Part shown: one piece after another, positions 4,950-54,708 of the stretch
Numbering within the stretch: the stretch's first letter is position 1
Layout of the letters: each line of letters opens with the position of its first letter
DNA from: Watersipora subatra
Lineage: Eukaryota; Bryozoa; Gymnolaemata; Cheilostomatida; Watersiporidae
DNA: 64,000 nucleotides
Reading direction: 5' to 3'
Assembly: GCF_963576615.1 (NCBI RefSeq)
Contig: NC_088715.1
Location: forward strand, 49,392,007 to 49,456,006
The notes under the pieces: model-generated
Database searches by the model: none
What the model saw: the letters and a program-made list of their open reading frames with translations, nothing else
What the model was told of the DNA's origin: nothing
Translations under genes and position numbers: made by a program

Positions 4950-4954
4950 TGGTA

Positions 4955-8139: not shown

Positions 8140-8143
8140 GTCC

Positions 8144-8476
8144 TCATCCTTCGAGGCTTGTCAGATTCTCCCGTCGGCGGGACCTCCCCATCGGTGACTC
8201 CTCCTGATCGGTGCGGTGCAGGTCGCGAACCTGCCTTACCCGCTCGCGGATATCCCTTGACGTCTCGGTCACGACCCCTGCCAAGGAGTCCACCAGCTCC
8301 TTTGCTCTCTGGCTGGTCCTCTCCTCTGACGCCTGCAGGTCGGCCCTCAGCTCTGTCATCTGCTGTTCCTGTTGGGATGCGGCATGTTGCATCGCATCCC
8401 TAAGTGCTGTCATCATCTCCTCTCGAAAAGCCTGGATGCTCTTCACTACTGCCTGCTTTACTTGTTCCTCAGCCAT
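8144..8476 (-). CDS. N-terminal Gag of element 1
   Basis: A 110-codon ORF from an ATG at 8476. It is Gln/Glu/Arg-rich and reads like a coiled coil (QHAASQQEQQMTELRADLQ), as in the matrix-like N-terminus of Gag in element 2. Its stop overlaps the +1 frame that continues as capsid (8139 downward). The simplest reading is a single-base indel in the gag gene; a programmed +1 shift is possible but I see no slippery or rare-codon signal. The start lies about 175 nt inside the primer-binding site. Confidence 0.8.
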   Translation of the reverse strand: MAEEQVKQAVVKSIQAFREEMMTALRDAMQHAASQQEQQMTELRADLQASEERTSQRAKELVDSLAGVVTETSRDIRERVRQVRDLHRTDQEESPMGRSRRRENLTSLEG

Positions 8477-8650
8477 TGTGTGTATTTACCGTTACTGGCT
8501 TATTAAGATATTCTAGTTAAGTATCTGAATCACTTTTTAAGCAAGTTAATTATCTATTCATTCAACTTATTAACCCAACAATTTATGTTACTACTAACCC
8601 AAATTCTATTTAACTCAAAGGAATATTATTATTCTATTTACTTTTGTTAT

Positions 8651-8668
8651 TCCCGGGTTTCGGCACCA
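8651..8668 (-). other. Primer-binding site, tRNA-Phe(GAA)
   Basis: The plus strand reads tcccgggtttcggcacca, which is the 3' end of eukaryotic tRNA-Phe including CCA. The element's strand (minus) carries the complement one base after the 5' LTR. All 18 bases match the tRNA end as I know it. Confidence 0.88.
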
Positions 8669-8669
8669 A

Positions 8670-9421
8670 TGTAAAGATTTGCCCAAAAATAGAGGCAATC
8701 TGTGTATTATTATGTAGGACCTGGTTCTTGGTGGTTGTCCTCTCTTGAGGTTGTTGATAATTAGTTTGCAAAGGGATCAATCAGCAAGTTATTTTATAAG
8801 GAAACCAAAACAAGAATGATTTATTAATTACACAAGGAAATACGCACAAGTTTAAGAGTTAATTAAAAAGTGAGACAATGGCTGAGAGAATATGAAACTA
8901 AAACACAGTAGGTAACTACCTGGCTTCGAGAGAGCGTGAGTAGTAGAATAATACAAGTGTCCAAAAAGTAGAATAAAATAAGAGTATATGTGTCTCCAGA
9001 GGTTACTTCAACAAGCTGTGGATAACAAGGAAGGGGCCGTATATATAGAAAGAGTGAGGCCACGCCTTGTTCGGATTAGAAATGTTTGAGAAATAAGTAA
9101 TGCTAAAAATATATCACGATGGTCACTGTGAAATAGCTTTATGGTTGCTTCAAACCATAAGCTCGGAAAACGGAGAGCCAAGATGGGTAGAGTTAATCTA
9201 CTTCGGTTAGATAGATTTTACATAGTCATGCAACCCTAGGCAGAGTATTTCTATGTTCATTTGAATCGTTAATAGATTGTCTTTAAAATGTCAGTTTGTT
9301 GGTGTAAGATGTATCATCTGGTTGAGTAAAGCTGTATAGATGTTAGGATGAATGTCACGTTGAAATCTGTTTCGATCGTGGGAATTCGGATCCGTGGGAA
9401 TTGGTCTGTGGGAACCTTACA
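8670..9421 (-). repeat. 5' LTR of element 1
   Basis: 752-bp LTR, colinear with 3682-4433 (offset 4988). TATA box on the minus strand at 9039-9048 and AATAAA at 8820-8825. Followed by target duplication ATCT at 9422-9425. Confidence 0.93.
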
Positions 9422-12720: not shown

Positions 12721-13036
12721 AAATAAGCCAGCACTTCAAAATGTTACAACTTTCAACAATCAAAAATGGCTGCGTAGTTGTGAGTTTCCTTCCGTATATT
12801 TTCATTGGCCTTTACTCAGAAAACTCATTGTAACATTGTTCAATATTAGCCAATAAGGGAAGCTTAGCATCTCTTCTTATTGGTTGGCTACTCTAAGACC
12901 TCATTTGGATTGGACAAAGGCTGAAATTAGTCTATGCCAAATAGAGTTACACTAAAGCCTCTACAGAGGCTAGGAGGACTGTGTGCAGACAACTCCAAGC
13001 CTCCACAGAGGCTTGTATGACTGAAATGCAATTCAT

Positions 13037-34998: not shown

Positions 34999-35440
34999 TT
35001 AGATATGCTGGCTTTGCGTGGCATATTGCTCGTTGGTTGCGGTGTCCATCTGCATGCATTTGTGATGCTGGCTGCAAACGCTCTTGTTTCTCATTTCAAA
35101 AGTACAAATTAGTAATAGTTCAAAAAATCGAGCTTCAACGGTTTGCTTCTCTACATGATTCTCATAAAGTTTCTCAATCATCGATTCAGAAGCAGTTGTG
35201 TCACGTAGTATACATGGCGACAATGACGGCAACAAGAACCTAGCAGTCGTATGGCCTGTTTTGCAGATCATTCGTGTTTGTGCATTTACAAATGCTATGA
35301 CACAATATGCCAATTAAACAAACTAGTGAGAGCTTTCTACTGGAAACTTTTGGATGAGCTTGGTACGCATGAATGAACTCTGTTGATTGCTTAGTTAGGG
35401 AATTCCCTTGCTTAAGGCATAGGGGTTTTTCCGTGCACAC
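34999..35440 (-). pseudogene. Envelope-like N-terminal fragment of element 4
   Basis: The minus strand carries a hydrophobic leader (LVCLIGILCHSICKC in one frame, MAYCVIAFVNA in another) followed by ICKTGHTTARFLLPSLSPCILRDTT. This matches the start of the env-like protein in element 2 after its signal peptide (LCRTGHTVAKFQLPKLPPCILPDTT region). Frames change around the leader, and the ectodomain is lost after about 60 residues. Confidence 0.7.
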
Positions 35441-35549
35441 TGATACAGCGACATACTCATGTTACAACATGCACACGGTTGAGAGCTTTGTCGTTATGAA
35501 AAACATTAAATGCTGTTGGCTCCTCAAGCTCTACATTGCTCTCCAGAAT

Positions 35550-36970
35550 TTAAACAACAAGTGGCTCAGCTGCCTCATGCGAGTTGCTTAGAGGGGTTTC
35601 AGCATTAGCAGCTTTCTCATCAATTACCATGTCAATGCTAAGCACCTCGCTATGAACCACTTCAACCATGACTGTTTCTGCAGCACTGAGGCCGTCAAAC
35701 TTGGGAAACTCAGGCATTGCTGTGTCTTCTGCATCCGCAAAACAAGTAATTTCGTATTGAGATTCTATTTCATTTTTACTGGCTTCAAATACGACGTGCG
35801 CAGAGGATGCAAAAATGGTACAATTATAGATATGTTCTGCTTTAATTTCAGCAGAAACCTCATCGGGATTATTACTGCTGGAAGCAACAAAAGAGACTTG
35901 GTTAGTGGAATGAAATTTGACCAGACATTTGTGGCTGTTGAACTGGATTTGAATGTGTCGGTAAGTTATTACCATGTTGTTGCCAATTAGCGCTGTCTGA
36001 TTTTTCTCATCAAATCTGTTTTCCGATCTAGTATTGGGACTGTCGTAAAAACCTCTTCGTTTCGCATTATGTCTTTTCCTGGGGCATGACACTGGAAAGA
36101 AATGTGATTTTCACTGCCACATCAAATGCACTGGCGTTTTGTCTCTCTTCGCCTGTCGAATCTATGATTTTTAGGTGGAACTCAGTCAGGCCCATGCTTT
36201 TGGTTACTGTTCGTGTTTAGTTGATAATTAGCGGCCACATCCCCTCTTACTGTTTCGCTGGAATACAGTCCTGATTCGAAACTAGTAGCGACTTGCAAAA
36301 GCTCAGCCAGAGATTTTCCTGCCAAATCTAGAACGCTTCTTCTGATTTTTGGCTTGAGGCCTTTTTGAAAATGAAGTAGCACAAAAGGGCTACTCTCAGA
36401 GGTATCGCCTTGGCCTACAATTTTACGAAACCTTTTGTAATAGTTTTTTACTGTCTCGCCATCGCCTTGTTTAATGGAGGAATTTTCCATAGAAATTTGT
36501 TCTGCTCCTCTATACGCACCAAGCCTTTCTTGGAGCAAATATTTCTACGTCTCATAACTCACATGGCCCCCTTCTTTTGCACAATTTCCCAATGATAGGT
36601 CACAGCCAAGTCTTTTAAAGATACTGGCAGGATTACAGTAAAATCTTTTGGAACTTTATTAAGCATGCAACGAGTTTCAAATTTTTGAATGAGCTTCTCA
36701 AAATGCTCATCAACAGAGATTTTCCTGTGAATGAAAGTCCAAAATTTACTCAATATTTTTATTTGTCACAGTAGAAAAGTTAGTTGTATAACCCAATGAC
36801 TTTTGGTACCTCCTCAAAGGTCAGCCCCTCATCGCTGGTTCCCTTCTGTCGACGTCATCCATTTTTGTCGCAAGCCTTTCCAGCAAATCCTCCCATCTGC
36901 GAGTCTTCTCCATTCTCTCAGAGAGCCGTCTATGTTTCATCAGCGTAATTGCGCCCAACATTGTCTTCCA
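35550..36970 (-). pseudogene. Gag and gag-env linker of element 4
   Basis: Minus-strand pieces line up with the Gag of elements 1 and 2: start near 36970 (EDNVGRNYADET), capsid blocks KFETRCMLNKVP and YYKRFRKIVGQG, then a zinc knuckle C-I-stop-CGSENHISFQC near 36110 with an in-frame TGA inside it. A 180-codon open frame (36092-35550) follows, acidic and Ala/Glu-rich, with HVVFEAS; a similar linker lies between Gag and Env in element 2. Order gag, linker, env is the same as in element 2. Confidence 0.75.
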
Positions 36971-37030
36971 TAATTACTCCATTTTATTCTTTCTAATGCC
37001 TCGATGGCGTCTAACTTCCAATTTCTTCCA

Positions 37031-37045
37031 CAACTTCTGACACGA
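37031..37045 (-). other. Primer-binding-site-like sequence of element 4
   Basis: The minus strand reads tcgtgtcagaagttg, close to the site in element 2 (cggtgtcagaagttt) and to the complement of a tRNA-Leu 3' end (TGGTGTCAGAAG). It lies between an LTR-like sequence and gag. Confidence 0.5.
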
Positions 37046-37048
37046 GAA

Positions 37049-37375
37049 TGTGAGTTTGTTGACCTCACACTAATGGGTTCGGCGTGAAACAAGATGTTCA
37101 CCCTAAGCGTTGAGCGAAGTTAGTGTTGGGTCGGTATATAATTTATTGGCGGATAGGATATCCTTGCAATTTTTTATTGGTTTTCCCAGTGTCAGTATCC
37201 TTGGAATTTACCATCTTCGGTATCCTTTGCCAACTAAGAAAGTTGGGTGTTGTCGGTATTGTTGTTCGGTATATGGTTTTCAGTGTGTGTTTAACTTCAC
37301 CTTACCTACTGCCCAGCCCTACTTCAGCTTACGTACTGCTTACCTCTTATATAACTCAGATCGGGGGGGGATAAT
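37049..37375 (-). repeat. 5' LTR of element 4, truncated
   Basis: Begins TGTGAG on the plus strand next to the primer site and contains a minus-strand TATA box (rc of cttatataactc, about 37344-37355). It ends at a run of eight or more G where the plus-strand pol of element 3 starts. Its true 5' end is missing. Confidence 0.5.
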
Positions 37376-39939
37376 GTTCCCAGGAACCCATTTGGGTACA
37401 TTACAGGAATTACCAGAAAAGAGAATGGTGGTTGTTAATTTGAATGACATTCTGACAAATGATCAATCGTCTGACCCGATCAGCAAAATTGATTTAATTA
37501 AAGATGCTCTTTCAGTAGCTGGTCAGCAGAAATTCAAAAAGTTTTTAAAAAGCAAGTACATGGCATTCGCTAAGCATGATTATGACCCTGGTAGGGTTTC
37601 GGGAGTTTCCGGTAGAGTCTGTGATACAGGGGAGGCACAACCAGTCCTTACCACACCTTACCGGGTGCCAGTGGCGCATAAACAACCATTAGATAAAAAA
37701 ATCTCTAAAATGTTGCCGGCTGAAGTGATTTTACTAGCCCAGACAGTGTGTGGGCATGTCCTGTAATCTTAGTTAAAAAACGCAATACAGATCAAATGAG
37801 AATCGTAAATGACTAGAAAGGTGAATTCAAGCGCGCACACAATTTCTTTTTTCTTGCCCCATCAAGACAGCATTAAAGAAATGTTTGATCAGGCACTTTA
37901 CACAACCCTAGACTTGCAAAAAGCCTACTGGCAAATTAGCCTTGATGAAGGGGATGACAGGCAAAAATCAGCCTTTGTAACATACAACGGCGTATATCGC
38001 TATAAGGTTCTACCATTTGGCTAGTCAAATTCACCACAAGTTTTTCAACGCGCAATTTCCACTATTCTGGCTGGTCTACAATGGAATACTCTTCAAGTAT
38101 TTCTACATGTAGATGACATTTTGATTTTCAGTCCTAACGATCTTGACGTTCACATAAGCCGTGTAGGAGCTGTTTTGGATAGGTTTATAGCTAATGGTAT
38201 CAAGATAAACTCAGAAAAATCTTCTTTTGCGAAAAGTGAGGTACAATATTTAGGAACTGTTTACAGCAAGTATGGCAGTAAACCAGCACCAGGACTAATC
38301 GAGAAAATTGTAAAGTTCCCAGCATCTCATGATTTGACTTCCCTTCAAAGAGCCATAGACATGTTGAACTTCTATAAAGCGTACATCCATGTTTTCTCAA
38401 ATCTTGCTGAACCGTGGTTAGATTTGCTTAAGGCAAACAAAAGTTTTAACCGGACAGAAGAATGCGAAACGAGCTTTCAAGCATTAGAAACAAAATTAAG
38501 TGACTTTCCCGTTTTAAGACATTCAGATTTCAGCAAAACTTTCTTTTTACACACAGATGCGAGTGGATTTGCGATAGGCGCGCAATTGTGCCAGAATTTT
38601 TGTGGCAAGCTACATCCTATCGGTTACCATAGTAGAGTTTTGAACAAAGCAGAGAAGAATTATAGCACCTATGAAAGGGAAGGTTTGGCTATTGTGAATG
38701 AGTGCAAACACTTTAGACATTTCATATTTGGGCATGAAATAGTATGCATAACAGATAATGTTCCTTTACGCTTGCTAATGTCATGTGATCATAGCAGCTC
38801 TAAGTTAGCCAAGTTTTAGTTGAAATTTCAAGAGTACAATCTCAAGGTGGTTTAAAGGCCTGGTCGAACTAATGTTGTTCTGGATGCCCTGTCAAGAGTT
38901 GAAATAAGCGAAGTTTGTGCCGTGGGCATTGTGAAACTCATCTATCATCGTCAGAACAAGATTTGCTGATTTCTAAAGAAATGCAGGAAAAAGATCTGTT
39001 TTTGTCTCAGTTGATAAAAAAATTACACGGAATAAAGCCTTTAAGAATAGTCTTTCTATGACCCAACAGCGGCACATACAGAATCAACTTCAGAACTATT
39101 TAGTTCGGGAGGATGTCCTGTATTACTGCCCGCCGGGCGCCATTAGACCGCTGCTTTGTGTGCCAGAAAAAAATGTCATTTGATTTGTTAGTGACTTACC
39201 ATTCTGGCCTGTTTTCAAGCCACGTCAGTATAACGAGGACGTATAAGCGACTGGCTCAAAAATACTTTTGGTCGGGTATGTCTAGAACTGTTGCCGACTT
39301 GGTGGCTGCATGCATCCCTTGCAATCAAATGAAAGGTTCTTATGTTAATCCAGTTTGCCCTCTGCAATCAATACTATGTGAGCGTGTGTAGGGTAGAATA
39401 GCCATGGATCTTCTTGGGCCTCTACCTGTAACAGCACAAGGAAACAAATATTTGTTTGCATTCCACTGTAGTTTTACGAAATATGTGATAGCTAAGCCAA
39501 TAAAAGACAAAACTATGAAAACAGTGGCAAAACTTTCATCGAACATATCATACTACCTACTGGGGTGCCTGATTCAATTTTGGCTGATGGTGGTTCTCAA
39601 TTTAGCTCTAATCTCGTGGCTGAATTAGCCTCCATTCGCCACATCAAGAAGTTGACAATTACCCCGTACCATGCAGCAAGTAAAGGCATGATAAGAACCT
39701 TTTTTCTACGTATTCCAGACTAATGTCAACAGTTATCAATGAGCAACAAACTAACTAGGATCTCATGACAAAATTCGTACTTCATGCTTACAATAACAGC
39801 GAGCACTGGTTTCACCCCGACCTACTTAGCATTCGGTAGGGAAATTGACATTCTGTATGATATCTGTGTGCCTCTGTCAATGCCACATTCCTTTTATGCA
39901 AGTGATAAGGACAGTCTGCAAGTCATGAAAGAATCAATG
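37376..39939 (+). pseudogene. Pol of element 3 (RT, RNase H, integrase)
   Basis: Blocks seen in order: the pre-RT region (DPISKIDLIKDALSV, RVSGVSGRVCDTGEA), RT palm (TLDLQKAYWQI, FLHVDDILIFS), RNase H (FFLHTDASGFAIGAQL, STYEREGLAIV, ITDN), and integrase zinc domain (YHSGLFSSHVS...ACIPCNQ, HHCC complete) with core MDLLGPLPV and ILADGGSQF. The third acidic residue is missing: the place of GGIEQFF in element 2 reads GMIRTFF. Several stops and frameshifts (near 37765, 37815, 38023, 38820, 39390, 39628) break it. Confidence 0.88.
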
Positions 39940-41996
39940 CTGCCCATATCTGACAAAACACTGTATCTGATAAATTGCAAACTTTCGGTAAATGAGCAAA
40001 ACGTGTTTAGCATCAGCCACGGCCTACGGTTGCTCGAGCCTAGTAAAGTTATATACCATTCTATCCAGAAGAGTGCACTATACTCACTGAGAATTCTTAA
40101 AATTTTGTCTAAACTCTTTTCCTGCAAAAAATAATGATAAAGTGTTTTGCCCGACAATCACTAATTGCTGTACTTTATCCCCATTGTTTGACATAACAAC
40201 GCATCACTCTGATGCAGTGTTTCTCCAGACAATTAGCTATTTATTAGATGATGAACATAAATGACACAACACTTTATATTTACATTTAATGGTTTGATGC
40301 AGCTTACTACAGACCAAATTCATGTACAACTATTTATTTTCAACAATTGCGATGTAACATGAAATAACTTGTAATAAAAATAATAATAAAACACAAAAAT
40401 AACTTGCAATTCTAGTTCTGCAGTTTGTCGTACAATGTGGTACAAAATTTAGTTTGTCATGCCACGTTGTGCACTTTTTTAAACTATGTTTTCAACAATC
40501 ATCTAATGCATGTAGATCACGGTGTGTCAGCAATAAGTCATCCCGTGAGATAAGATCGGGTACATCTGAAGCATTAAGGTTGGACCAAAATCTATGTTTA
40601 TTCGTTGGCATCAGTAGGCAGAGTTTTGCAACGATGTCAGTTTTCTTCTCAGCAGTAATGCCCTTTGCCTCTCTTTCATCATTAGTCGTTCGTCAGTTAG
40701 ACTGCTTTTTTTCAAGAAATCCAACTCTTGAAACTGAGATTGATCGTGCGATTTCTTGAGCAAAACTGATGAGCTGTTCTTTCGAAACTGAATCACTCTG
40801 TATTCAGCTAGGCGGGGGCGATCTTTACTTGACTTAGTCCTCCGACAAAGCAACGAAAATCTTCATTGACAGGAACCAGCACTGATGTTTTCGAAACCCT
40901 GCTCGCACCCTCTATGAAGTCATTAAAGTCGTATACATTTTTCACTGCCTTCACTTCTCTTTCTACACCAGCATGCACTGTGTCTGCTGACATGAAGGTG
41001 TGCCCAGCCTCAAGGTACTTGAAGGTGACTTTGTCAGCTTGCATCTTTCCAGAATTCATAAGAATTACCATCGCAGTTATTATATTCCAATTTTTGTTCT
41101 GCGCAGCACAATTGTCCATAAAATGAACAATAGAATCATAATCACCATGTGATTGACGGTAGAGCGATATGCAAGGATTGTATGACCGTATATGTGATTT
41201 TATGCGCTCAACATCGCTATCAGTCAAAGCATGGTGAGGAATGGTCTTGCCTCGCTTGTCGGGTGTTGGGGCCAACAGGTATGGATCTGATTTTAAGAGC
41301 TCTTGTATGACAGAGCTGGATGTAGGATAACCGAAAGTAGCTAAGAAAAAAGCTTTGCAAACTTGGACTTTACTTCCATTGTCGGCTATTAGGTTGTACT
41401 TCACATACCAAGATCTGGAGGTACCTGAACAGTTTGTAGGTTGACGATCTAGCAAGCTCCACAACACTCCTTTTCGGTCATTGTAGCATTTTGAGACACC
41501 ACTTTGGGCTGTATCACTCAAAGATCGTTTGTGGTTTACAGATATATTTGAATATACCATGTTCATGAAACTGTGTAGTTGACTACTCGAGCCACATTTA
41601 CCAGCTGACGTGGTAGAGGAAAACATAAAATATTAGTATTGCGTGTTTCTAACAAGCTTCAAATTGACACCTAAAAATCTCTTCATCACCAGGATTGGTG
41701 TCTGGAATCTTGTATCGAACCGGTACGGGTAATCTTATTAGTCCCTAACATGATAGTTCTAACTGAAAACAGTTAACACAATCATAGTGAGTGCGTTAAG
41801 ATGCATTGTTTTGTCAGACATAATGTCTTGACGCAACAGTGATGCATTGTTTCACCAGGGTTGAAACTACCCTAATGAATGATCTTTGAGCCAAATAATT
41901 TTAGGACAAGATAGGGAACAGTATTTAGATGTGAAATATGTTAAAAAGTTAAAATTGAAAATTTTTGAGATACAGTGTTTTGCCGGACATGGGCAG
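39940..41996. mobile_element. DNA transposon, 2057 bp, 4-bp TSD, about 29-bp TIRs
   Basis: Inverted ends CTGCCCATATCTGACAAAAC... and their complement (...gttttgccggacatgggcag) match over about 29 bp with four mismatches. Target duplication AATG at 39936-39939 and 41997-42000. Removing the insert restores the integrase frame (KESM then ATAWAIVRDNIE, against ESLVVA.AQARDNIE in element 2). A 4-bp duplication would suit Sola-type elements, but I cannot place the superfamily. Confidence 0.9.
40808..41626 (-). pseudogene. Transposon-encoded protein with DNCAAQNKN / GHTFMSAD blocks
   Basis: A 272-codon open frame from an ATG at 41626. It has a KAFFLATFGYPTSSSV block, then YNPCISLYRQSHGDYD, then MDNCAAQNKN, EAGHTFMSADTVHAGVE and a C-terminal part. 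This order (D-N-C-A-x-Q-N-K-N followed by GHTxMxxD) is seen in uncharacterised transposon-linked proteins with an RNase-H-like fold. The stretch between YRQ and DNCAAQ is shorter than in relatives as I remember them, suggesting an internal deletion, and the N-terminus is short. It lies wholly inside the TIR-bounded insert. Probably a defective transposase. Confidence 0.65.
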
Positions 41997-42438
41997 AATG
42001 GCTACGGCATGGGCAATAGTTAGGGATAATATTGAGGTGACTCAAGCAAATTACAAATTTTATCACGATGTACATACTAAGGGGCACCAATATCAAGTTA
42101 GTGACACAGTTTACGCTCTGGTGCTGAGACTGTCCGGGGTTGGTCAAGTTAAAAAGTTCACATCTATGTATCACAGGCCATACTGTATCACTAAGCTGTG
42201 AGGGCCCAATGCATATGTTAGAGCAATGGGAACCACAGGTCATCCAACTGGTGTAGAGTTCATTACTCATCTTGAACGCTTGAAAAAGGCCAAGTCTCCT
42301 CTTATCATGGACACTCCAGTGCCCAATTATGTTTCAAACAAACGAGACCATGACACAGCAGTGACTTTAGCAGACATCTCAAAGAAGCCCATAGTTTCTA
42401 AGCATAGTTACAACATGAGAAGCTCTGCTAAAAAGTAA
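41997..42438 (+). pseudogene. Integrase C-terminal end of element 3
   Basis: Continues the integrase after the DNA transposon: ATAWAIVRDNIEVTQANYKFYHD, VSDTVYALV, VKKFTSMYHRPYCITKL, a stop (TGA at 42199), then GHPTGVEFITHLERL and a Ser/Lys tail ending SYNMRSSAKK. Matches element 2 (51330-51800) throughout. Confidence 0.85.
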
Positions 42439-42541: not shown

Positions 42542-43353
42542 TTAAATTTCAAATTCGGAAACTGATGATAGATCATCGATCTGGTCTAAAAGGATCACGG
42601 TATTAATAGATGACGCAGGTCTACGATTAATAATAAGATGTCCAGTGCGTCGACGATAAAAAAATTGTATATCAACCAAAATAATAGCAAAATGACTAAT
42701 ATAGAGATCAGTGGGGCAAGCCATGTCCAGTAAGAATTAGTTTTTATGTTAAGTGGATAATCAGCTGTTAGGGAAATAGTGTTGTTGATAACGTTTGAAT
42801 TCCTGGATGCATCGTTGTATAGTGGAGTGTTGAGATGATCTGTTGTTAATTCTGGGTAATTGTAGTATTCTAAAACAAATATTAGTTAAATACTTGATGG
42901 TTTACTTACGTAAAACATATTATAGCTGGAATAACTGTAGATGCCAATAAAAAAAATAAGCGAAAGTTAGGTTTTAATTATTATAAACCATTCAAATAAA
43001 AAAACGTAATTTGTTTGCTTAACGAAATTCCTTTGTGGTTAGCGAGTCAAGTCAGGGTTTATGCTTTAGGAATAATCGGTCGAAGTTGTGCGCTCTTGTC
43101 AGTAATTGAGAGTGACTATTTGAAGGAGAATACAACTACTTACCGATTTGGACATCTGCGTCGTTGAACAACTTGAGTCCTATTGGAGCACGAAGTTTTA
43201 ATGTTGACGGGAAAAAACTATTACGGATATCGACAGTTTTATAATTTCCTTAAATTATAAACATTAAACATTCGTTAAATCACAATTATTCGAAGTAGTC
43301 AAATTTTTATGGGAGCAATCAATTTTAAAATTTATTGGCAAACATAAACAGAG
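42542..43353 (-). pseudogene. Antisense spliced membrane-protein gene of element 3
   Basis: Opposite strand to pol, directly after it. Exon 2 (42869-42542) follows acceptor tttgttttag and encodes a Tyr/Asn-rich ectodomain (YYNYPELTTDHL, NNT sequon), a membrane segment (WLAPLISILVILLLFWLIYNFF), then after a one-base slip in a T7 run, YRRRTGH and an acidic tail. Exon 1 (43353-43144, donor ATCG/gtaagtag) contains FKIDCSHKNLTT, matching FKIDCSNRNLTT in element 2. The first 18 nt of coding sequence lie at 54709-54726, beyond element 2. Intron 274 nt, phase 1, as in element 2. Broken by a stop after DLTNV and the T7 slip. Confidence 0.75.
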
Positions 43354-44026
43354 TGTAAGACACCTGTATCTTGACCATGACCTAATTTCATCTCACCTCT
43401 GCCTAGCTGCGGTTTCTACATACCGATGTCAGAACAGCTCTCATGTCAGAGCTACATATCTTTTATACATTAAGTTGTTATTATACATGTACTATACACA
43501 AAAGGGAAGAAAGTAACACATTTCTATAACATTTCATCATTTGACAATTACTACAAGACCAACATCTTTTGCTGCCAAGACTGTCTGTATCACCATTCGT
43601 GTCAGCCTCTATAAATATTCCAACTACGCTAATGATCTATCCGCATCCGCTTGCTTATCTTTGTCTGTGCGCCTGGAACAAAATTAATTGTGTAAATATT
43701 ATTCTGTATCCTTTTTGTATCTTGTGTTTGACTCATGCCACACATATTTTATGCAAGTCATAGTCTCCTATATAAGGGAACCCCATCTTGTTGGTGAGGA
43801 GTCATTCGCTCAAACATTCATACTAATACTCTTACGCTCATATTTTATTATACACTTTCGCTAGGTAATATAGATCATTGAATAAACTCTTCTTAAATAC
43901 GACCACTGTTTCGTTTTCGCAGTATTAAATCTCGTGGTAGAAAAACAGTTCTACAAACTGGCTGAAACAGATTAAGCCCCCTAAGGGTAACATTGCTAAG
44001 AAGGACATTAGCAACGGGTTATCGCA
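43354..44026 (+). repeat. 5' LTR of element 2
   Basis: TATA box tcctatataagg near 43768-43779 and polyadenylation signal aataaa near 43881, in U3-R order. It contains the blocks catctcacctctgcctagct and cattgctaagaaggacatta, shared with the 3' LTR. Confidence 0.92.
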
Positions 44027-44040
44027 CCGGTGTCAGAAGT
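44027..44040 (+). other. Primer-binding site of element 2 (tRNA-Leu-like)
   Basis: Sequence ccggtgtcagaagt directly after the LTR. The complement of a tRNA-Leu 3' end would read TGGTGTCAGAAG, so 11 of 12 bases agree (T to C at the first). Assignment to Leu is from memory of tRNA ends. Confidence 0.6.
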
Positions 44041-44051
44041 TTTTGTGTGCA

Positions 44052-45250
44052 ATGGGAGACAGTGAGGAAAACTCATTGGTGAGTCTTCGGGATCCAATGG
44101 AGCGGGTCGACCAGAAGTTTGCGCACAAGGGTGATATCGTGGACCAGCAGCAGAATGCACTAGACGCTGTGGACATGAAAACTGACAGTATTGAGCGTAT
44201 GATTCAAACTTTGACAGAGAGGGTGTCAGAGATAGCTGGCAGAGGACCGGCAATGAGGGGAGAGAGCCGTTTCCTTCCAGCGGAAGATCCAGAGATAAGT
44301 TTTGGTGGCAACCTATTAGATCGCAATGGCTGTGAGGTAAGGCAATCTCGTAGGAGTGATTGGGTGAGGTTTGGCTTAAGTTTTACTGGGAAAAGTGAAG
44401 AAGATTTTGATAGTTTCTCAATGCAATTTGAAACTTGTTTAATGAATGAGGTGCCCAAGTATTCTTATGTGCTGGTTTTGCAGCTATATTTTAAAAATCT
44501 TGTTGCGGCATATTTAAAGGAAATTGTTAGAGCAGAAGGCAGTTCGGTAACTTATGAAAAAGTATAAAGGCTCATGAAAACTAAGTTGAATGCATGCAAA
44601 GGTGATGAGCAAGTAGCGTTGGAAGTTTCAGCAGTAAGACAGGAAAGCACGGAAAGCGTGTTCAAGTATTATGAACGCTTCAGAAAAATTGTTGCGAGTG
44701 GAAGCGCTGGAAAAGACAGCCTTTATATTTTGCTTCACTTTAGAGCTGGTTTGCATTCAGCTATTAGAGACAAAATAATGGGCACGCCATGCAAAAACTT
44801 GTCAGATTATTTGAGAGCTGCGGTTGGTGTAGAAACTGCGCTACTAGCAGATAAAAATGTTTCTGACGTTTCCGCAAATTACCAGTGGCAGGCCTCATCC
44901 ATTTCCAAAAGAACGGTTTGACAAGACAGTTAGAAAATGTTTTTGTGTATCTCTGAGAAACATCTAGCTAGATTTTGTGACAAGAAGGCTGTGAGTAGTA
45001 GGAAAGGTCACCAAGGCCAGGGCAGGTTTCAGTTGTACCAACAACCTAGAACAAGCTTTAGCAATAGAGGCCAGCATAGAGTAAATAGCCAGCAAAACGA
45101 GATGCCGAAATGGTTCAAGGATTGGCTAGCGAGTCAAAAATCTCCAGTTACTGAGCAACCTGTCACGAAACCCCCCCCCCCCCCCGAGCAGCATATGCTT
45201 CGGTCAAAGTGCCCCTTGCAAATTCTACGAGGCAGCCAGCTAGTGTAGCG
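44052..45250 (+). pseudogene. Gag of element 2
   Basis: ATG at 44052 (MGDSEENS). N-terminal helical part (about 1-75), capsid blocks FETCLMNEVPK and YYERFRKIV, an in-frame TAA at 44565-44567, then a second open piece to 44921. The zinc knuckle survives in part (CISEKHLARFC, the HX4C half) but its first Cys is lost by a frameshift. A Gln/Pro-rich end with a C16 tract at about 45170 follows. Homologous to the Gag of elements 1 and 4. Confidence 0.82.
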
Positions 45251-45682
45251 CTCAACCAGGCACGAGATAATACAACCGTGGTTTTTGACAACATGGTTTT
45301 TGAATATGTTGAGGCACCAGTTGCACAGGAAGTTAAAGCAAAAGTAATGGGTCCAATAATTTTCCTTGTAGCCACGATGGTACCTGCAGTTGTTTTTGAA
45401 GTAGCACAGGTCTCGCAGGTAAATGTTGAGATGAGTAAGGTCGGCGGTAAGGCTAAGGTAGTTCCTACTGTGCCTGGCGAATGGGTAAGCTGGGGACAAG
45501 CCTACGAATTGATTTCACTTGATATTGCTGGAACTGAGCAAGTAATGACTAACCTTGAGGGTAGTGCAAGTCAAGTGAGTGCAAGTGGTTTGCAGAGGCA
45601 ATTGAATAGCGATAATGAGGCTAATTATCACCCTTCTAGACCACCTAATGTAACTAGAAGGAATGTTGGTAGTGGACTTGGA

Positions 45683-47217
45683 ATGTCATATGCCATGAGT
45701 TTTTTGTTTACATTCCTTGCGCTTTTGACTATGTGCCAAGCTCAGTCCCCAATGCTTTGCCGAACTGGGCATACTGTAGCAAAATTTCAACTGCCTAAAT
45801 TGCCTCCTTGCATACTGCCAGACACCACTGTCGCACATGACCCCTACGATTTGACATTGACTTTATATAAGCCCAATTTGGTCCAATACAAAAGCGGAGC
45901 ATTTCATTGCAAAATCATACAAACTAGGATTGTGACTCATTCAGGATTTTTTGATGAGGGACAGACGACTACTTAGACCAACTTGTTTCACGAGACATGT
46001 GTTATTCAATGTATAAATGGCATAGCTCCCCGCATGGTGATCTGGTACAAATTGGTTCAATCTACCAAACAGATAATGTGGCGGAACCGGAATTTCACAC
46101 TGGTTTTAAATGCTGCGCGGATTATGAGTTCACTGTTTTCAATGCTTGTTTGTATGAGACGAGCGTATTCAAGCGACATGGAGAAGTCGAGAATGTGGAA
46201 AGCTCCGCTGGTGTGGTAGACCACTGCACCTGCCTCGCTGGCTTCTGCAACCTGAAGGATGGCTCTGCTCTTCTCTGGGAACCAGACGAGAGGGAAGTGT
46301 GCAAGTACCTGCCACACCAGACTTTCCACGACCAGTTCCAAGATCGGTTTTTGGATGGCAGAAAGTGGTGAGTTAGCCTTAAGTTTCACTAAAAATGAGA
46401 TTGTGCGTCAAGATAGCGAATATGGGGGTGATGTAGAGTTGTCTGACCAAGGCATAGCTTGTAGCCGTGTAAACAATGTAACCCGAGGGAAACGAGATAT
46501 TGATGGACGACTAACGGATAGCAAAATAAATGTCAAGCTGCAAGCTCTTGAATTACGAATCCACCAAAACTACAATCACATGTTCAAAGCGTTCTTTCTG
46601 AATAATTGTCATGCCATGCAAGCACTAGTGCAATTGGTCACAAGTTCACTTGGGCAGAGCCCGACATTGGCTGCTAGGCACCTACTAAATAATACCTACG
46701 TTTATGCAATGCTGACTCACAACTTTTTATCTGTTTACCCATGCGAACCAATTGAGAACTACTCTATAATGTCGTGGAAACGTTCTCTAGCAGAATTATT
46801 TTGAATATTTATATTGCCAGCGCTAATCAAACTGTTTGGCGCGATACTCATACAAATATAGTATTTCATGACCGGGACTACGGTGAGTGCAATGAACCAA
46901 GAAATTCCTGTTTCGCTACAGAACAAGTTGTACTATTATCATCATAGCAGCGGTGACTTGACTCCTATTACTACGACTGACTCTCTTAACTTGATATTTC
47001 TAGACTATTCATTGTTTGGTATCGAACATGACAAGGTGGTAATCCATCAGCTATTACTATATATGACTGGGATACGTTTAGAGACAAGTTCTCACTAAAT
47101 GACTGGGCTAGTTCCTCTTCACACCAAGCGAAAATTCTGGAGCATTTAGGAGTATTTTCTAATTTCTACAGTGACCCTTTACTGCAATCCGGCAAACTGG
47201 CAAACAATATAGTCAAT
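45683..47217 (+). pseudogene. Envelope-like glycoprotein gene between gag and pol
   Basis: Begins with a signal peptide (MSYAMSFLFTFLALLTMCQA, ATG at 45683), then LCRTGHTVAKFQLP. After a frameshift near 45965 a Cys-rich ectodomain follows (FHTGFKCCADYEF, CNLKDGSALLWEPD), another shift near 46350, then GELALSFTKNE, a glycosylated furin-type site NVTRGKRDIDG and the helical block LQALELRIHQNYNHMF. Downstream frames continue to about 47217, and a hydrophobic run (WIFLCCLYITSNLVW, about 47268-47312) may be the anchor. An acidic linker upstream (45209-45682) joins it to Gag. This has the outline of a class of viral surface protein (signal, cleavage site, anchor) but I cannot assign a viral family. 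Its position before pol is unusual. Confidence 0.7.
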
Positions 47218-47309
47218 TAAGGAACATTTTCATTCCTGAGTGCCTGTGGTACATGGGATATAAAGCAGTTTTGGATATTCTTGTGTTGTCTATATATAAC
47301 CTCAAATTT

Positions 47310-47699
47310 AGTTTGGAGATGCATTCTCATGCGCACTGGACTGAAAGCATTTGCAAAAGATCTTAAGAAAAATTTGCGTGGATATTTCTTTGTTCTAAGG
47401 AAACTGATAAAAATACCAAAATATCTATCGCTTTGAACCAAACTACTGGGAATACCCAAATTCCATTGGGGCAAAATGAGCTTGAAGAGATTGAGGTCGA
47501 TGAATTGCCATCGAATAGCAATGACCTACTATCAGATAAAATGACTAACATAGAGGAAAACACTAGGGCTCCAGGAGAGCCAGCTTCTCTTCCGCTAGTA
47601 TCTTACAAAACACCTGAGCGAAATTTACCTAGGGAAACTGACCAACTTAAGACGCGAAACAGACAATCTGCTAGACAGACCACTAAGCATGTAGCCTCT
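47310..47699 (+). pseudogene. Acidic linker upstream of protease
   Basis: Open stretch (47433-47717) rich in Glu, Asn and Thr (ELEEIEVDELPSNSND, then NLPRETDQLKTRNRQS). No fold recognised. It could be the cytoplasmic tail of the env-like protein or the N-terminal part of the protease polyprotein. Confidence 0.4.
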
Positions 47700-47739
47700 C
47701 GGACAAAAGCAAGATGAGTATACACACGACAACATGCTC

Positions 47740-48111
47740 CCACCTTAGCAGATATTGTGTGCGATGTGTCGAATTTAGTTCATGAGTCTTTAATACGTAC
47801 CACAATTCTTGGTCAAGAACACGATGCTCTGATAGATACGGGTGCGCAGGCATCAACAATTAGCATGGACTTGTGTAGAAATTTGGCATTCAGTCTAAAA
47901 TAAAAGAAACTTCTCGAGCTGTAAGAGCGATGAGTGGACATGTAGTGTTAAAATTAGGTGAGGTTTTTGTACCAATACGATGCCATGGTAATATTCCTAT
48001 TGAAACAGTTCTTCCAGTAATAGATACGTGCAAATATTCGCTAATATTAGGAGTTGACAGTCTAAAACAACTGGGGAAATTTTGTGTTGACTACCATTTG
48101 GGAAGACTGAA
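47740..48111 (+). pseudogene. Retropepsin-like protease of element 2
   Basis: Active site ALIDTGAQASTIS at 47828-47866 and C-terminal block YSLILGVDSLKQLG near 48030-48075, with a stop and frameshift between them (about 47900). Cut at 48112 by a MITE-like insertion. Confidence 0.82.
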
Positions 48112-48486
48112 GCCCGGTTCCCATATAGGCCTACGCCGCAAAGCACCGGCGACAGCACCACAGGCTATTGCGGTAAAATGGGAACCTACACGCCCGCAGA
48201 TCGCAGTGCACCGCCGGTGGATTCCGGCGGTCAACGCAAGAGTTTGCGCATGTTCAAACTTTGCAAACGGGTGCAGGCAAAACATTTCTGAAATGCGCTG
48301 TACAGGTAAAGGTCACCATTATAGGAACAGCATAGCGAGCGAAAATTTTATTTGATTACGCAATTATGTTTACGATATTATTAACGATGTGGCTTTATGT
48401 GAACATATCCCGCAAAGCATAGCGTCGCAAGCATTTTACTGCGCATGTTACCGCCGGAGTCTAGCAATCGATATGGCTAACCAGGC
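48112..48486. mobile_element. MITE-like insertion in the protease region
   Basis: About 375 bp, more GC-rich than its surroundings. Ends GCCCGGTTCCCATAT and the complement of atatggctaaccaggc form short imperfect inverted repeats. TTAA follows on the right (48487-48490) and TGAA precedes on the left (48108-48111), compatible with a decayed TTAA duplication. The protease-to-RT sequence is otherwise continuous across it. Confidence 0.5.
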
Positions 48487-48501
48487 TTAAGAATACAGCC
48501 T

Positions 48502-51500
48502 GTGATGTATGGAAAGCAATTGCTCAATAACTGCGCTATGATTAAACATGCTGACAATAGAATGTACTGCAATGTGTTTGCTGACCGAGATTTAGTTTTT
48601 CCACCGTACAGTGATAATAACTTTTGCAACTCAAGCGGAACTAATAATAACGACCATGTGGTTTTTGAACCAACCATAGCACAAGAAGATTTATTATTTG
48701 CAAAGACACTCAATCCAAGCTACAGTAATTTGAGGTGCTGTATAGTAAATACTTCCGAAAATTACATTACCGTATTCAAAGGAACTCCGCTTGGAATTGC
48801 CTTTCCATTACCTGCAGATGACATGGATGTGGTTAATGTTAATGAAGTTTTCAAAGATGTTAACACCGAGCCAACTGACCCTGTAAGTAAAATTGACTTG
48901 ACAAAATCTGTATTAAATACACAGGATCAGAAACGATTTAAAATATTTCTAGAGTCTAAAAGAGATGTTTTTGCTTCTCACTCCTTTGATCTAGGCAGAG
49001 TATCTGGGTTGTCTGGTAGAGTCTGTGACACTAGGGATGCTGCCCCTATCCGGCACGCACCATATCGAATACCAGTAGTGCACAAAGCCCCCTTAGATGA
49101 GGAAATAGACAAGATGCTTAAGGCTGGGTTAATAGAGCCTGCCCAACAAAGCACATGGGCGTCACCAATTATTCTAGTGAAGAAGAATAGTACGAGAATG
49201 CGTATCGTTAATGACTATCGTAAAGTTAATGCATGCACACATACTCTTTCTTTCCCATTACCTCATCAAGACAGTGTCAAGGAAATGGTTGCAGGAAGCT
49301 CACTTTTCACAACGCTTGATTTGATGAAAGCTTATTGGCAGATTGGGCTAGATAGCGAAGAAGATAGAGAGCGAAGTGCCTTTGTGACATATAATGGCGT
49401 GTTTAGGTACAAGGTGATTTCTTTTGGTTGAAAAAATTCTCTGGTTTTTCAGAGAGCAATTTCCACCATCTTGGCAAATCTGAACTGGAAAAGCTGCCTT
49501 TCCTTTTTGGATGACATTTTAATATTTAGCGAGAACAACGTGGACACATACATTGAACGAGTGGGTGTTGTGTTGGACCATTTTATAGCGCATGGTATAA
49601 AGGTCAATCCAGAAAAATCATCATTTGCCAAAGATAAGGTTCAATATCTAGGGCATGTGTACACGAGTAAAGGCAGTCAACCTACCTTTGAGCTAGTTGA
49701 CAAAATATTGCTGTTTGACCGGTATGACCTCAATTCACTGCGTAGGACTATTGGGCTAGTTAATTACTATCAGACCTACATTCCAAATTACAGCGATTTT
49801 ATAAAGCCTATTTTAGAGCTTCTGAAACATGACCGAAAATTTGTTTGGACTGAATTGTGTGAAACAAGATTTAACTTGCTGAAAAGTAAATTGACTGAAT
49901 ATCCAGTACTGAGATATCCAGATTTCACAAGACCTTTCTTTGTGCATACTGACTGCAGTGGATTTGCCTTAGGAGCCCAGCTTTGTCAAGTGTTTGAGGA
50001 TGGATACCATCCCATTGCATATCATCGTAAGATGTTAAACACAGCTCAGCAGCGATATTCCACTTATGAACGTGAAGCTTTGGCAATCGTGGATGCATGT
50101 AAAACATTTCGTCATTTTATTCTTGGACATGAAACTACAGTCATTACAGACCACTCTCCACTAAAATGGCTGACGACTTGTCAACACAAGTGTTCGAGAT
50201 TAGCAAAATTTGCTCTAAAGTTACAAGAATACGACTTAAAGATAGTACACAAGCCTGGTAAATACAATATTGTGCCCGATGCTCTATCAAGAGTTTCTAA
50301 TTCAGACAATTGCATAGTAGGCTCTACGATAACACACCTGTCATTTACCAAAGAAGAACTGTTGGCATTCAAGAAATTTCAGCGAGAGGACGACTACCTA
50401 TCTAAAATCATATGTTTTCTTACTCATGGCGAAAAACCGACCGGCTGCAGTCCTACTCAGCACAGACACTTCAAAAACCAGAAGGATAACTATTTCTTGC
50501 AAGAGGAGGTTTTGTATTACAACCCATCCGACTCGGTAAGAGCCCTATTATGTGTACCTGAAGCTCTGCAGCTTGACCTGCTTGCAACATATCATTTGTG
50601 TCTCTTTGGGTGCCATGTGGGCAGATCGAGAACCTTCAAACGTTTATCTCAGCGGTACCATTGGCTTGGAATGTCTCGATGTGTAGCAGATTTCATATCC
50701 GCTTGTGTCACCCGCAATCAAAGGAAACGTGGTTACGTTAATCCAGTATACCCATTACAACCCATCGAATGCGAACGACCATTTTCTCGTGTAAGCATGG
50801 ACCTACTTGGACCCCTTCCTTTAACTGAGCGAGCCGCAAAATACCTTGTAGCTTTTCAATGCAGTTTCACAAAATTTGCGATAGCCGGTCCTATTCCGGA
50901 TAAGAAAATGCAAACAATTACTGAAAACTTGATTGAGTTTGTCATCCTACCACATGGCGTAATGAATGTTCTTTTAAGTGACAACGGCTTGGAATTTGCA
51001 TCCGATCTAATGAATGACTTGGCCAAAACGTTAGATATTGAAAAGAAAACGATTTCAAGATTTCAAGCTTCAACCAATGGTGGAATTGAACAATTTTTCA
51101 GTACTTTCAGTAATCTGATGTCGACCATAATTAATAAATCACAGACGAATTGGGATCAGATGACTAAATATGTACTTCACGCATACAACAACACTGTACA
51201 CAATTCGACCAAGTTCAGCCCTAGCTACATGTTATATGGCAGAGTTGGACATAACATTTGATTTGTGTATGCCAATAACTATCCCGAAAAGTTATGCCGA
51301 GGATAAGTCAAGTGTAGATATCATGAGAGAATCCCTAGTCGTTGCTTAGGCTCAAGCCCGTGACAATATCGAATGTGCTCAAGCCAGTTACAAGTATTAC
51401 CATGATATGCATGTGAAAGGTCATGACTATGCTGTTAACGATTGCGTGTATACCCTGGTACCTCGAGTAACTACCGGACAAGTGAAAAAGTTTACGAGTC

Positions 51501-51600
51501 AGTATTACAGACCTTATGTGATTACGAAACTGCGAGGTCTAAACGCATACATCCGAGCAATGGGTGCTGCTGGAAGGCCAGTAGGAGTGTAATTCGTCAC
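48502..51600 (+). pseudogene. Pol of element 2 (RT, RNase H, integrase)
   Basis: One frame runs from 48502 to 51261 with a single TGA (49429-49431) inside the RT block KVISFG. RT: TWASPIILVKKN, TTLDLMKAYWQI, FLDDILIFS. RNase H: FFVHTDCSGFALGAQL, STYEREALAIV, VITDHSPLKW. Integrase: a zinc domain altered at the last Cys (ACVTRNQ instead of CxxC), and an intact DDE set MDLLGPLP, LLSDNGLEF, GGIEQFFSTF. A frameshift near 51245, a TAG near 51347 and a TAA at 51590 break the end; the tail VKKFTSQYYRPYVITKL is clear. It is the best-preserved pol in the window. Confidence 0.92.
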
Positions 51601-52168
51601 TCATCTGCAGCGACTTGAAAAGTGCAAACCGCCTCTGCTCCCTGGTAGTGATACTCCGCAGTACGTATCAGTCAAGCGTGCTACTGATTCTACAAGTACT
51701 AGCGATGTACCAGATCACAACCAAACTAACACTGATTCAGACTCGAGTAATTCTCAACCCCGTCATACATACAACCTACGACCCCACGCCTAGTTGCTAC
51801 GTACCAACAATACTTCATGCTTTTCCTTGTTAGTTTTGTGAATAGACAATCTTGTACTCGAAATTGTGCGTCAGAAAAAAATATTGTATTAGTCAGTGCA
51901 TGGAACTAGAGAACACTATTGTTCACCCCTTTGCTCAATAGTGTTAACTCCTAAATATCGATGGTAATAACTTTAATGTAATTATATTAGTAAATATACA
52001 GTTCCAGTTATACACAGCACTAATTAACTGTGAGTAAAACATGTATATAATAAATTCGTAATCTGATTGTGGAAGAAATTAAATCAACAGTAAATATGCA
52101 GACTGTAATGATGGCTGACAGGATAGAAAATTAGTAAATAGTAAGTAATAAGAAATGTAGTAGAAGAA

Positions 52169-53080
52169 TCAAACAGGAGAATTAATAGTTTGGTTACTAA
52201 TTGAAGCTGCGTCAAACAAAGAGTCTTCACTTTCATCGTCAATTGTTGCCAAGTTGCTCATTTCGCCTAAATTAATCAGTTCGGCAATAGTGGAAAGTTG
52301 ATTGTCTCTTCGGCGCCTTAAGTAAATAAATTTGTAAAGTAAGAAAATAGTAATTAAAATTAATAAAATACTGATGGGTAGAATCGTTGATAATAAAATA
52401 ATGGAAAGTATATTGAGATCGTCCGTTGCAGAATCAGTTGAATGGATGTAGACAGGAGAAGTGATGTTGGTAGAGTTAGGATCAAGATAATCAGTAGTGG
52501 AAACGTTCGTAATAACGGCAGTTTGATCAGTTGGGAAGTAATCATTCGGTGAACCAGCTGCAAGAAAAACTGGAGTGATTAGTAATTGGTAGTTTACCTG
52601 TCATTAAAATTCCGAAACAACTCAGCTAGTTGGTAACTTTCATTAAACCAATGTGATTGAATGTAAATAGTCCTTGCGCAGGTATGATACAGTTATCAGA
52701 GTCTTAGTCATGAACTTGGGCTAGGGTGAAGCAACTCCTTAATTAGTGACTGTTCACGAGTTGATAGTAGTTATGTTGTGGATATTACAAGCAATCATGT
52801 CAAACTCGTTTAGTTTATAAGTGTACATACCTCTCTGGATCAATAGATGCGGATTGTCAGTAAATACTTGGAGACGATGAGGTACAATTAGCAATAATAA
52901 ATTTGGATTTTCGGTTATTTCTAGTAAATTGAAAGGCGAGTACAAGTCAGGAGAATCAATTTTGGATAATTCATTGGTGGTTAAATTACGGTTAGAACAA
53001 TCAATTTTAAATAAAGTGATGGAACAAAAGCAAACGGTGATTAATAAGCAAAACATGATTGGGAAATAGTAAGGATGCAT
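52169..53080 (-). CDS. Intact antisense two-exon gene for a single-pass membrane protein
   Basis: Exon 1 53080-52831 (250 nt, ATG at 53080, donor CAGAGAG/gtatgtac), intron 273 nt, exon 2 52557-52169 (389 nt, acceptor tttttcttgcag, stop TGA). Phases agree (1/2), giving 212 codons without a stop. Parts: signal peptide (about 1-20, MHPYYFPIMFCLLITVCFCS), a short ectodomain (21-132) with FKIDCSNRNLTT and four N-glycosylation sequons (NLT, NVS, NST, NIT), a long membrane segment (133-163), a stop-transfer RRRR (164-167) and an acidic tail (IDDESEDSLF). It lies after integrase inside the LTRs but on the opposite strand. The frame is intact although gag, env and pol of the same element are broken. 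The layout suggests a type I surface protein; I recognise no family. Confidence 0.7.
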
Positions 53081-53555
53081 GAGTACGAAATTGATAAATT
53101 GTACTATACAGTCTGCTAGAAAATATTGAGTTCTTATCAATATCCGGTTATTTCATAGAGTATGCGATTTGGCTAAACAGGAATTGGCTTACCCTTTTTA
53201 AATTGGTCCTCAAAATTAGCATGCATTAGCGAGCATGCAACTCTTGTTGAATGCTGAATTAGCATTCAAAATTCGTTTTTCCCTTGCATCAACTAGAGAA
53301 GCCAGCCTACTACAACCTTGACACCGACTCGGGTTTCCCACTGCATCTAGGAGATGCCATCAACGATTCGCTGCCCGGAGACTATGCTCACTAATTTCCA
53401 CAAAGTTAAGTAGTTTCATACAAAAAAAAGAGAAAAACGCAATTTCTGTGTTCCTGCAAATGTATCGTGGCATATATTACACCTTTTCTTAGTGCTGAAC
53501 TTTTGCTTTTGAGTGTTAGGTGCACTCTCTCCCTTAATATTTTTCTTTACTGCAC

Positions 53556-53915
53556 CTAAAGTTTTCTCGAGCGAAAGGGAGAGGGGCAACATATGCAACC
53601 TATTTGCCATTGTATTTTATCATGTAAATTTTTTTTAAATATTTTACAGTTTATGTTCCTTTTCTTTTGATACAACTTTGCTGAGATTTTGCTTTTTGTT
53701 GTTAGGAGTAGTAACCACATATGCTGATGGATGGCGGGTACTGCAAATTGGGAGTCATCGACAAGATACATGAAGGTGCAGCTTTGGTTGTGATATATTC
53801 GGTAGCAGCGATCCGCTCCAGGCCACATTCGGGACTCGTAAGCGCAGATGACAAAAACAAAGACATTACCAAAACATGGAATGATGGTAGCTATACAAAG
53901 AAGAACTCCTCGTCA
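53556..53915 (-). other. Further antisense open stretch in element 2
   Basis: About 120 open codons without an ATG at the start. A hydrophobic run (CIATIIPCFGNVFVFVICA) is followed by a Cys/Trp/Tyr-containing part (MWPGADRCYRIYHNQSC). It could be another exon of the antisense gene, a second small membrane protein, or chance. No partner in element 3 can be checked because that region is missing. Confidence 0.3.
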
Positions 53916-54028
53916 CCAACACTCTACCCCCTTTCTCTTTTGCCTCGTTCAAGAAATAGACAGTCGAACCTCCAACCTCATCACCCTGTTCCTTTTCTCT
54001 TAAGAAGATTTACCGCCGTATCGTCGTC

Positions 54029-54040
54029 TAAGGAGGAAGG
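54029..54040 (+). other. Polypurine tract of element 2
   Basis: taaggaggaagg directly before TGTAAGA of the 3' LTR. Confidence 0.8.
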
Positions 54041-54704
54041 TGTAAGATACCTGTATCTTGACTATGACCTAGTTTCATCTCGCCTCTGCCTAGCTGCGGT
54101 TTCTACGTACCGATGTCAGAACAGCTCTCATGTCAGAGCTACATATCTTTTATACATTAAGTTGTTATACTATACACAAAAGATAAGAACGTAACACATT
54201 TCTATAACATTTCATCATTTGACAATTACTACAAGACCAACATCTTTTGCTGCCAATTTGTCTGTGTCACCATTCGTGTCAGCTCCATAAACATTCCAAC
54301 TACGCTAATGATCTATCCGCATCCGCTTGCTTATCTTTGTCTGTGCGCCTGGAACAAAATTAATTGTGTAAATATTATTCTGTATCCTTTTTGTATCTTG
54401 TGTTTGACTCATGCCACACATATTTTATGCAAGTCATACTCTCCTATATAAGGGAACCCCATCTTGTTTGTGATGAGTCATTCGTTCAAACATTCATACT
54501 GATACTCTTACGCTCATATTTTATTATACATTCTCGCTCAGTAATATAGATCGTTAAATAAACTCTTCTTAAATACTACCTCTGTCTCGTTATCGCAGTA
54601 TTAAATCTTGTGGTAGAAAAACAGTTCTACAAACTTTGGCTTAAACAGATTAAGCCCCCTGAGGGTAACATTGCTAAGAAGGACATTAGCAACGGGTTAT
54701 CACA
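54041..54704 (+). repeat. 3' LTR of element 2
   Basis: 664 bp, with TATA box tcctatataagg near 54442-54453 and aataaa near 54557. Several substitutions and short indels relative to the 5' LTR (for example one ttat missing near 54165). Followed by AGAG. Confidence 0.92.
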
Positions 54705-54708
54705 AGAG

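Follow-up and report, generated by a model that had tools for sequence, protein, structure and literature searches.

A 64,000-nucleotide (nt) stretch of the genome of the bryozoan Watersipora subatra (contig NC_088715.1, positions 49,392,007 to 49,456,006; hereafter the window) contains a Ty3/Gypsy long terminal repeat (LTR) retrotransposon, element 2, whose minus strand carries, between integrase and the 3′ LTR, a spliced gene predicted to encode a single-pass, type-I-like membrane protein. A broken homologue lies in element 1, a divergent neighbouring element, and a shared, spliced minus-strand gene is the best reading of the exon matches, the intron and the codon pattern taken together. We consider it very likely that the antisense gene is real, and we lean towards a fuller account in which it is an old component of a Ty3/Gypsy lineage and would be spliced to give an accessory surface glycoprotein. 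The gene in element 2 is laid out as follows, in window positions:

52831..53080, minus strand: exon 1, 250 nt, with the ATG at 53080, a signal-peptide-like start and then FKIDC
52558..52830, minus strand: intron, 273 nt, GTATGT...TTGCAG, phase 1
52169..52557, minus strand: exon 2, 389 nt, with the rest of the ectodomain, the membrane segment, RRRR, the acidic tail and the stop

Once spliced, the gene measures 639 nt including the stop (212 codons), and the underlying minus-strand open frames are 52600-52169 (143 amino acids, stop to stop) and 53152-52754 (132 amino acids). An earlier note on this DNA had proposed a two-exon minus-strand gene, and its coordinates, splice junction (GT-AG, phase 1) and 212 codons were all borne out on re-reading. 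Translated apart, exon 1 begins MHPYYFPIMFCLLITVCFCSITLFKIDC, the protein itself starting MHPYYF, and exon 2 continues GSPNDYF. Translation and hydropathy also agreed with the protein features described there: the four sequons (NLT, NVS, NST and NIT) all lie in a short ectodomain N-terminal to the single membrane segment, which is followed by RRRR and then by a tail with an acidic run. The best 19-residue hydropathy values were 2.42 in exon 1 (residues 6-24) and 2.85 in the exon-2 piece (residues 52-70), and judged from hydropathy alone the N-terminus is signal-peptide-like. Structure prediction, which the earlier note had suggested as a check, gave one helix (residues 42-101) in a single-sequence model of the exon-2 part (predicted template modelling score 0.40). 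An ATTAAA motif stands ~190 nt past the stop on the minus strand and may be there by chance.

Element 2 is inserted in and beside the remains of element 1, a divergent relative whose plus-strand pol pieces (37308-42438, with unrelated sequence between them) lie directly to its left. The reverse transcriptase (RT) and ribonuclease H (RNase H) pieces of the two elements are 49-58% identical and most of integrase 33-45%. Between the end of element 1 pol and the insertion point of element 2 are 0.9 kilobases (kb), which hold the broken minus-strand homologue (43354-42440):

42013..42438, plus strand: element 1 integrase tail, 65% identical to element 2 over 81 positions
43144..43353, minus strand: remains of exon 1 of the element 1 antisense gene, cut by the insertion of element 2
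42870..43143, minus strand: putative element 1 intron, 274 nt, GTAAGT...TTTTAG
42542..42869, minus strand: broken homologue of exon 2

The minus-strand pieces of element 1 run in the order FKIDC..NLTT, a block near the GTAAGT donor, TTDHL, the membrane segment, YRRR and an acidic tail; the membrane segment, an RRR patch and the acidic tail are common to both copies. The earlier note had held that the lack of any other copy would count against the gene, and this divergent, broken copy answers that concern. At 35188-38000, remains of gag/env on the minus strand, with what looks by eye like a primer site near 37040, stand head to head with the plus-strand pol of element 1; the divergent gag(-)/pol(+) arrangement at 35-38 kb probably represents two elements side by side.

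Homology between the two antisense copies was assessed by frameshift-tolerant local alignment of each exon separately against the minus strand of 43354-42440, with 600 shuffles as control. Scores were 68 for exon 1 and 87 for exon 2 (shuffle maxima 53 and 67; 0/600 each; Gumbel p = 5.7e-5 and 1.5e-6). Across 64 other stretches of the window, taken on both strands and leaving out those overlapping the two antisense genes, the maxima were 55 and 52, and the plus strand of 43354-42440 gave only 28 and 33. With other gap costs the exons scored 68 and 62 (0/200 shuffles each). The two best tblastx pieces between the regions fell in the predicted minus frames (E 2.1e-6 against a 954-base target), and a third piece (E 0.11) was the first one read in reverse. 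Exon order is the same in both copies and the introns measure 273 nt in element 2 and 274 nt in element 1; any donor-acceptor pair of 270-276 nt was present in 73/2000 shuffles. A further exon-1 block adjoining the element 1 donor scored 30, a value reached by 11/500 shuffles, and if this block is accepted the element 1 intron would be in the same phase. Differences at codon positions 1, 2 and 3 numbered 56, 40 and 71 over 123 aligned codons, a protein-gene-like pattern obtained from a protein-guided alignment with no shuffle control. A decayed homologue in a distantly related neighbour suggests a real family component rather than a chance frame, and this lineage has probably long carried a membrane-protein gene with an intron on its antisense strand. 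That two diverged elements have a similar intron is consistent with descent from one ancestral antisense gene and speaks against processed copies having been captured repeatedly.

Several results weigh on the other side. In plain tblastn over the whole window, exon 1 alone found element 1 (E 0.001-0.003), and at E up to 5 neither exon 2 found a match in element 1 nor the element 1 exon-2 piece a match in element 2; gaps and frameshifts must be permitted for the exon-2 match to be seen, so its support comes from the gapped alignment together with the shuffle control. The last part of that match (LFD, ASI) lies beyond a stop in element 1, the upstream regions of the two copies share only 14- and 11-base matches, the homology was seen by eye first and tested afterwards, and the copies number two, one of them broken and cut. 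The predicted helix aside, nothing in the exon-2 model was confident and the ectodomain was poorly modelled (mean predicted local distance difference test score 67.9). Protein searches gave 44 candidates with exon 2 and 2 with the unspliced exon-1 frame, none passing, and viral contigs yielded no confirmed match to exon 2 (nor to pol or Env). The absence of protein-database relatives is itself weak evidence, because exon 2 is without an early ATG and gene callers may miss relatives. Profile searches of Pfam, NCBIfam and PDB returned sub-threshold matches only, most overlapping the membrane segment, and PHROGs returned none; Orf78, STEVOR, adenovirus E3A, LRRNT, PDGLE and other weak profile matches were rejected, being below curated cut-offs and mostly over the membrane segment.

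Element 2 is a Ty3/Gypsy LTR retrotransposon, with paired TG..CA LTRs, a short target duplication and the pol order RT, RNase H, integrase. Its plus-strand orientation, as claimed in the earlier note, agrees with the LTR ends, the AGAG duplications, the purine tract and the plus-strand gag-pol:

43354-54704, plus strand: element 2, Ty3/Gypsy LTR retrotransposon with gag, Env-like gene and pol
43350..43353: left target site duplication AGAG, read from the sequence
43354..44026, plus strand: 5′ LTR, 673 base pairs (bp), TG..CA ends
44028..44045, plus strand: primer binding site of the GGTGTCAGAAGT type, read from the sequence
44052..45248, plus strand: gag, broken (Retrotrans_gag E 0.0049, 17.5 bits, below the cut-off of 24.1)
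45665..46804, plus strand: recognised part of the broken Env-like gene, between gag and pol
47879..51793, plus strand: pol, broken, with RT, RNase H and integrase in that order and a protease-like start recognised by eye
54030..54040, plus strand: polypurine tract (purine-rich stretch adjoining the 3′ LTR), read from the sequence
54041..54704, plus strand: 3′ LTR, 664 bp, TG..CA ends
54705..54708: right target site duplication AGAG, read from the sequence

The LTR pair differs by a Kimura two-parameter distance of 0.050 with 5 gap events over 661 aligned sites, computed on slices one base off. We take the GGTGTCAGAAGT primer binding site to be that of a leucine transfer RNA (tRNA-Leu). Within pol, RNase H and H2C2 scored above the Pfam cut-off and rve reached 28.5 bits (cut-off 32.6); pol relatives numbered 288 proteins at E up to 1e-10, with P0001 at 64% identity among the matches listed (120 of 288). 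The Env-like gene matched the chuvirus-type fusion family PF24664 weakly (E 1.9e-5, 23.3 bits, cut-off 27). It stands directly after gag, and its placement between gag and pol is unusual, env usually being 3′ of pol; the gag-then-env order recurs in minus-strand pieces at 36907-35188 and 8160-6379. From the end of pol (51793) to the 3′ LTR are 2.2 kb. A plus-strand frame at 53715-54194 (159 amino acids, stop to stop) extends into the 3′ LTR. Upstream of the antisense gene, an inverted repeat recognised by eye at 53520-53590 terminates in a strongly purine-rich run, AAGGGAGAGGGG, that looks like a polypurine tract but has no LTR adjoining it.

The earlier note had also stressed that the antisense gene is intact while the rest of this copy is broken. 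Gag, the Env-like gene and pol are indeed broken, each with more than one open frame, and the antisense frame is open, but the contrast proved weak as evidence. Compared with a relative (630/1006 aligned residues identical, 48694-51727, 3.03 kb), element 2 pol has 3 stops and 2 frameshifts; at that lesion rate ~1.05 lesions would be expected in 639 nt, with P(none) ~0.35, and at the LTR gap rate (2.5 per LTR) ~2.4 would be expected, with P(none) ~0.09, still not decisive. Intactness carries little weight because about one lesion is expected in 639 nt at the pol lesion rate, and as a sign of selection it was rejected.

Elsewhere in the window, element 0 occupies 3682-9421 on the minus strand (LTRs 3682-4433 and 8670-9421, 99.7% identical) and contains an 815-bp segment twice (4954-5768 and 6301-7115), with an integrase tail (+) meeting an env piece (-). 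Element 0 was considered as an instance of antisense env behind pol and rejected; because the junction truncates both genes and the segment occurs twice, we read it as a rearrangement, making it a recent chimeric element. Its Env-like piece matched PF24664 at 10.9 bits (cut-off 27). A 664-codon open frame at 10741-12735 on the minus strand is presumably a piggyBac-type transposase.

In the account that we propose for element 2, minus-strand transcription would start from the gene's own promoter or from an antisense promoter in the 3′ LTR, and the transcript would be spliced to encode a glycoprotein of 212 residues. Both kinds of start have precedents: Grande gene23 uses a promoter of its own (PMC7264820), and the 3′ LTRs of HTLV (PMC10186651) and of the mussel element MchSLE-1 (PMC10974842) drive antisense RNA. 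The protein would be placed at the cell or particle surface, its acidic tail directing trafficking, and would play an accessory part in transmission beside the Env-like protein of the sense strand. The intron would persist with its splice signals unread, since the RNA genome of the element carries it in antisense and thus has only the complement of its splice sites, so that it could survive reverse transcription. Antisense placement explains the intron but is not the sole way, as an intron in the sense strand can likewise survive where the RNA stays unspliced. Taken as a step on its own, the accessory role in transmission is tentative, and we would sooner doubt it than assert it; we think it more likely than a fusogen role because an Env-like gene, weakly matching the chuvirus type, is already present on the sense strand. 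The term ambisense, used in the earlier note, suits the two coding strands, which fit the sequence, but does not extend to a demonstrated minus-strand promoter. In its widest form the proposal is of an ambisense, env-bearing, retrovirus-like lineage of animals, with sense gag-env-pol, an antisense spliced second surface glycoprotein and an intron surviving repeated reverse transcription in antisense; judged from the literature searched, this would be the first minus-strand surface protein of a Ty3-type element, and we rate it at slightly under an even chance.

The gene might instead encode a small fusogen or transmission protein, antisense and replacing Env rather than standing beside it, like the FAST-like sORF2 of MDG1-group elements, which likewise has one membrane segment with a polybasic patch after it and comes from a Metaviridae-type element (PMC11952523). 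The predicted antisense protein, however, has 212 residues against 63-107, a signal-peptide-like start in place of the MGxxxS/T start of most sORF2 proteins, and sequons; all sORF2-like candidates of that study are forward, with no evidence of splicing, and belong to elements without Env (PMC11952523), whereas element 2 also has an Env-like gene. We consider this alternative unlikely.

An antisense regulatory RNA, whether it formed double-stranded RNA, gave rise to small RNA or interfered with the sense transcript, would leave the reading frame as a passenger, and functions at the RNA level have been described for antisense transcripts of HIV-1, HTLV and other elements (PMC7264820, PMC10186651). 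The similarity between elements 1 and 2, however, is seen in the translation of each exon, with intron size kept, and blastn over both elements found nucleotide similarity through pol and none in the antisense gene, and we regard a purely regulatory role as improbable. Capture of a host gene in antisense together with its intron seems more improbable still: a retained intron is expected of capture at the DNA level or in antisense, and elements are able to transduce host genes (PMC7264820), but no cellular relative was found in protein and profile searches, and any capture would be old because the gene stands behind pol in two elements with RT/RNase H only 49-58% identical. Chance open frames in AT-rich DNA are very improbable, since the longest frame reached at least 143 amino acids in 7/1000 dinucleotide shuffles of 51810-54041 but both observed lengths (143 and 132) occurred together in 0/1000, and the element 1 homologue and the similar intron speak against chance as well.

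If the proposed antisense glycoprotein is real, an endogenous retrovirus-like lineage would code for protein on both DNA strands, and a spliced gene would pass the RNA stage by its antisense placement, giving a testable rule for intron persistence in retroelements. A second surface protein would bear on the cell-to-cell passage of such elements, and annotation confined to the sense strand would overlook such genes.

Among animal elements, the Steamer-like MchSLE-1 of Mytilus chilensis has antisense RNA from the 3′ LTR and a 67-residue antisense open reading frame (ORF), whose protein was made only as a fusion to green fluorescent protein in HeLa cells (PMC10974842). It resembles element 2 as an animal LTR element with an antisense ORF and differs in that length and in the absence of the word 'transmembrane' from its available description (PMC10974842). 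The Vesta LTR elements of bdelloid rotifers have short ORF3 membrane proteins proposed to be env-like, with two membrane regions in Vesta4 and no antisense ORF in the available description (PMC5408684). Anakin elements carry a chuvirus-derived Env (PMC12440569), a likeness that concerns the sense-strand Env-like neighbour, with its weak PF24664 match and its place between gag and pol, and not the antisense gene. Troyka, also considered, was rejected, as it is described with CG..CG ends and 3-bp duplications.

Minus-strand coding is shared with HTLV-1 HBZ and HIV-1 ASP, and ASP, compared by description only, is a precedent for an antisense membrane protein. The HIV-1 ASP gene overlaps env. ASP is an antisense protein on the viral envelope modelled with two membrane segments, unlike the single one here, and HBZ is a nuclear bZIP protein encoded on the minus strand by RNA with spliced forms, antisense RNA in HTLV being driven by the 3′ LTR (PMC10186651). 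Unlike HBZ, the antisense protein had no bZIP match in Pfam.

The closest parallels in placement are the antisense ORFs of plant Ty3/Gypsy elements (Grande gene23, RIRE2, Retand; aORF-3R), which run antisense to gag-pol between pol and the 3′ LTR and are kept across related families (PMC11963269, PMC7264820); Grande gene23 is transcribed from its own upstream promoter (PMC7264820). As in these, the antisense gene lies behind pol in both elements 1 and 2, the 3′ LTR being seen for element 2 only. The plant products, where known, have nuclear or DNA-linked domains such as TRP28 and SMC (PMC11963269, PMC7264820), whereas the predicted protein here combines a signal-peptide-like N-terminus with sequons and one membrane segment, and Pfam, searched at E up to 10, gave no match to TRP28, SMC or any other DNA-linked domain. 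Among the titles and abstract openings listed from the open-licence literature, none concerned a membrane protein encoded antisense and spliced in a Ty3 element of an animal. Antisense genes between pol and the 3′ LTR in plants and antisense retroviral proteins are thus already known, and what element 2 would add is a predicted surface protein, antisense and spliced, in a Ty3 element of an animal.
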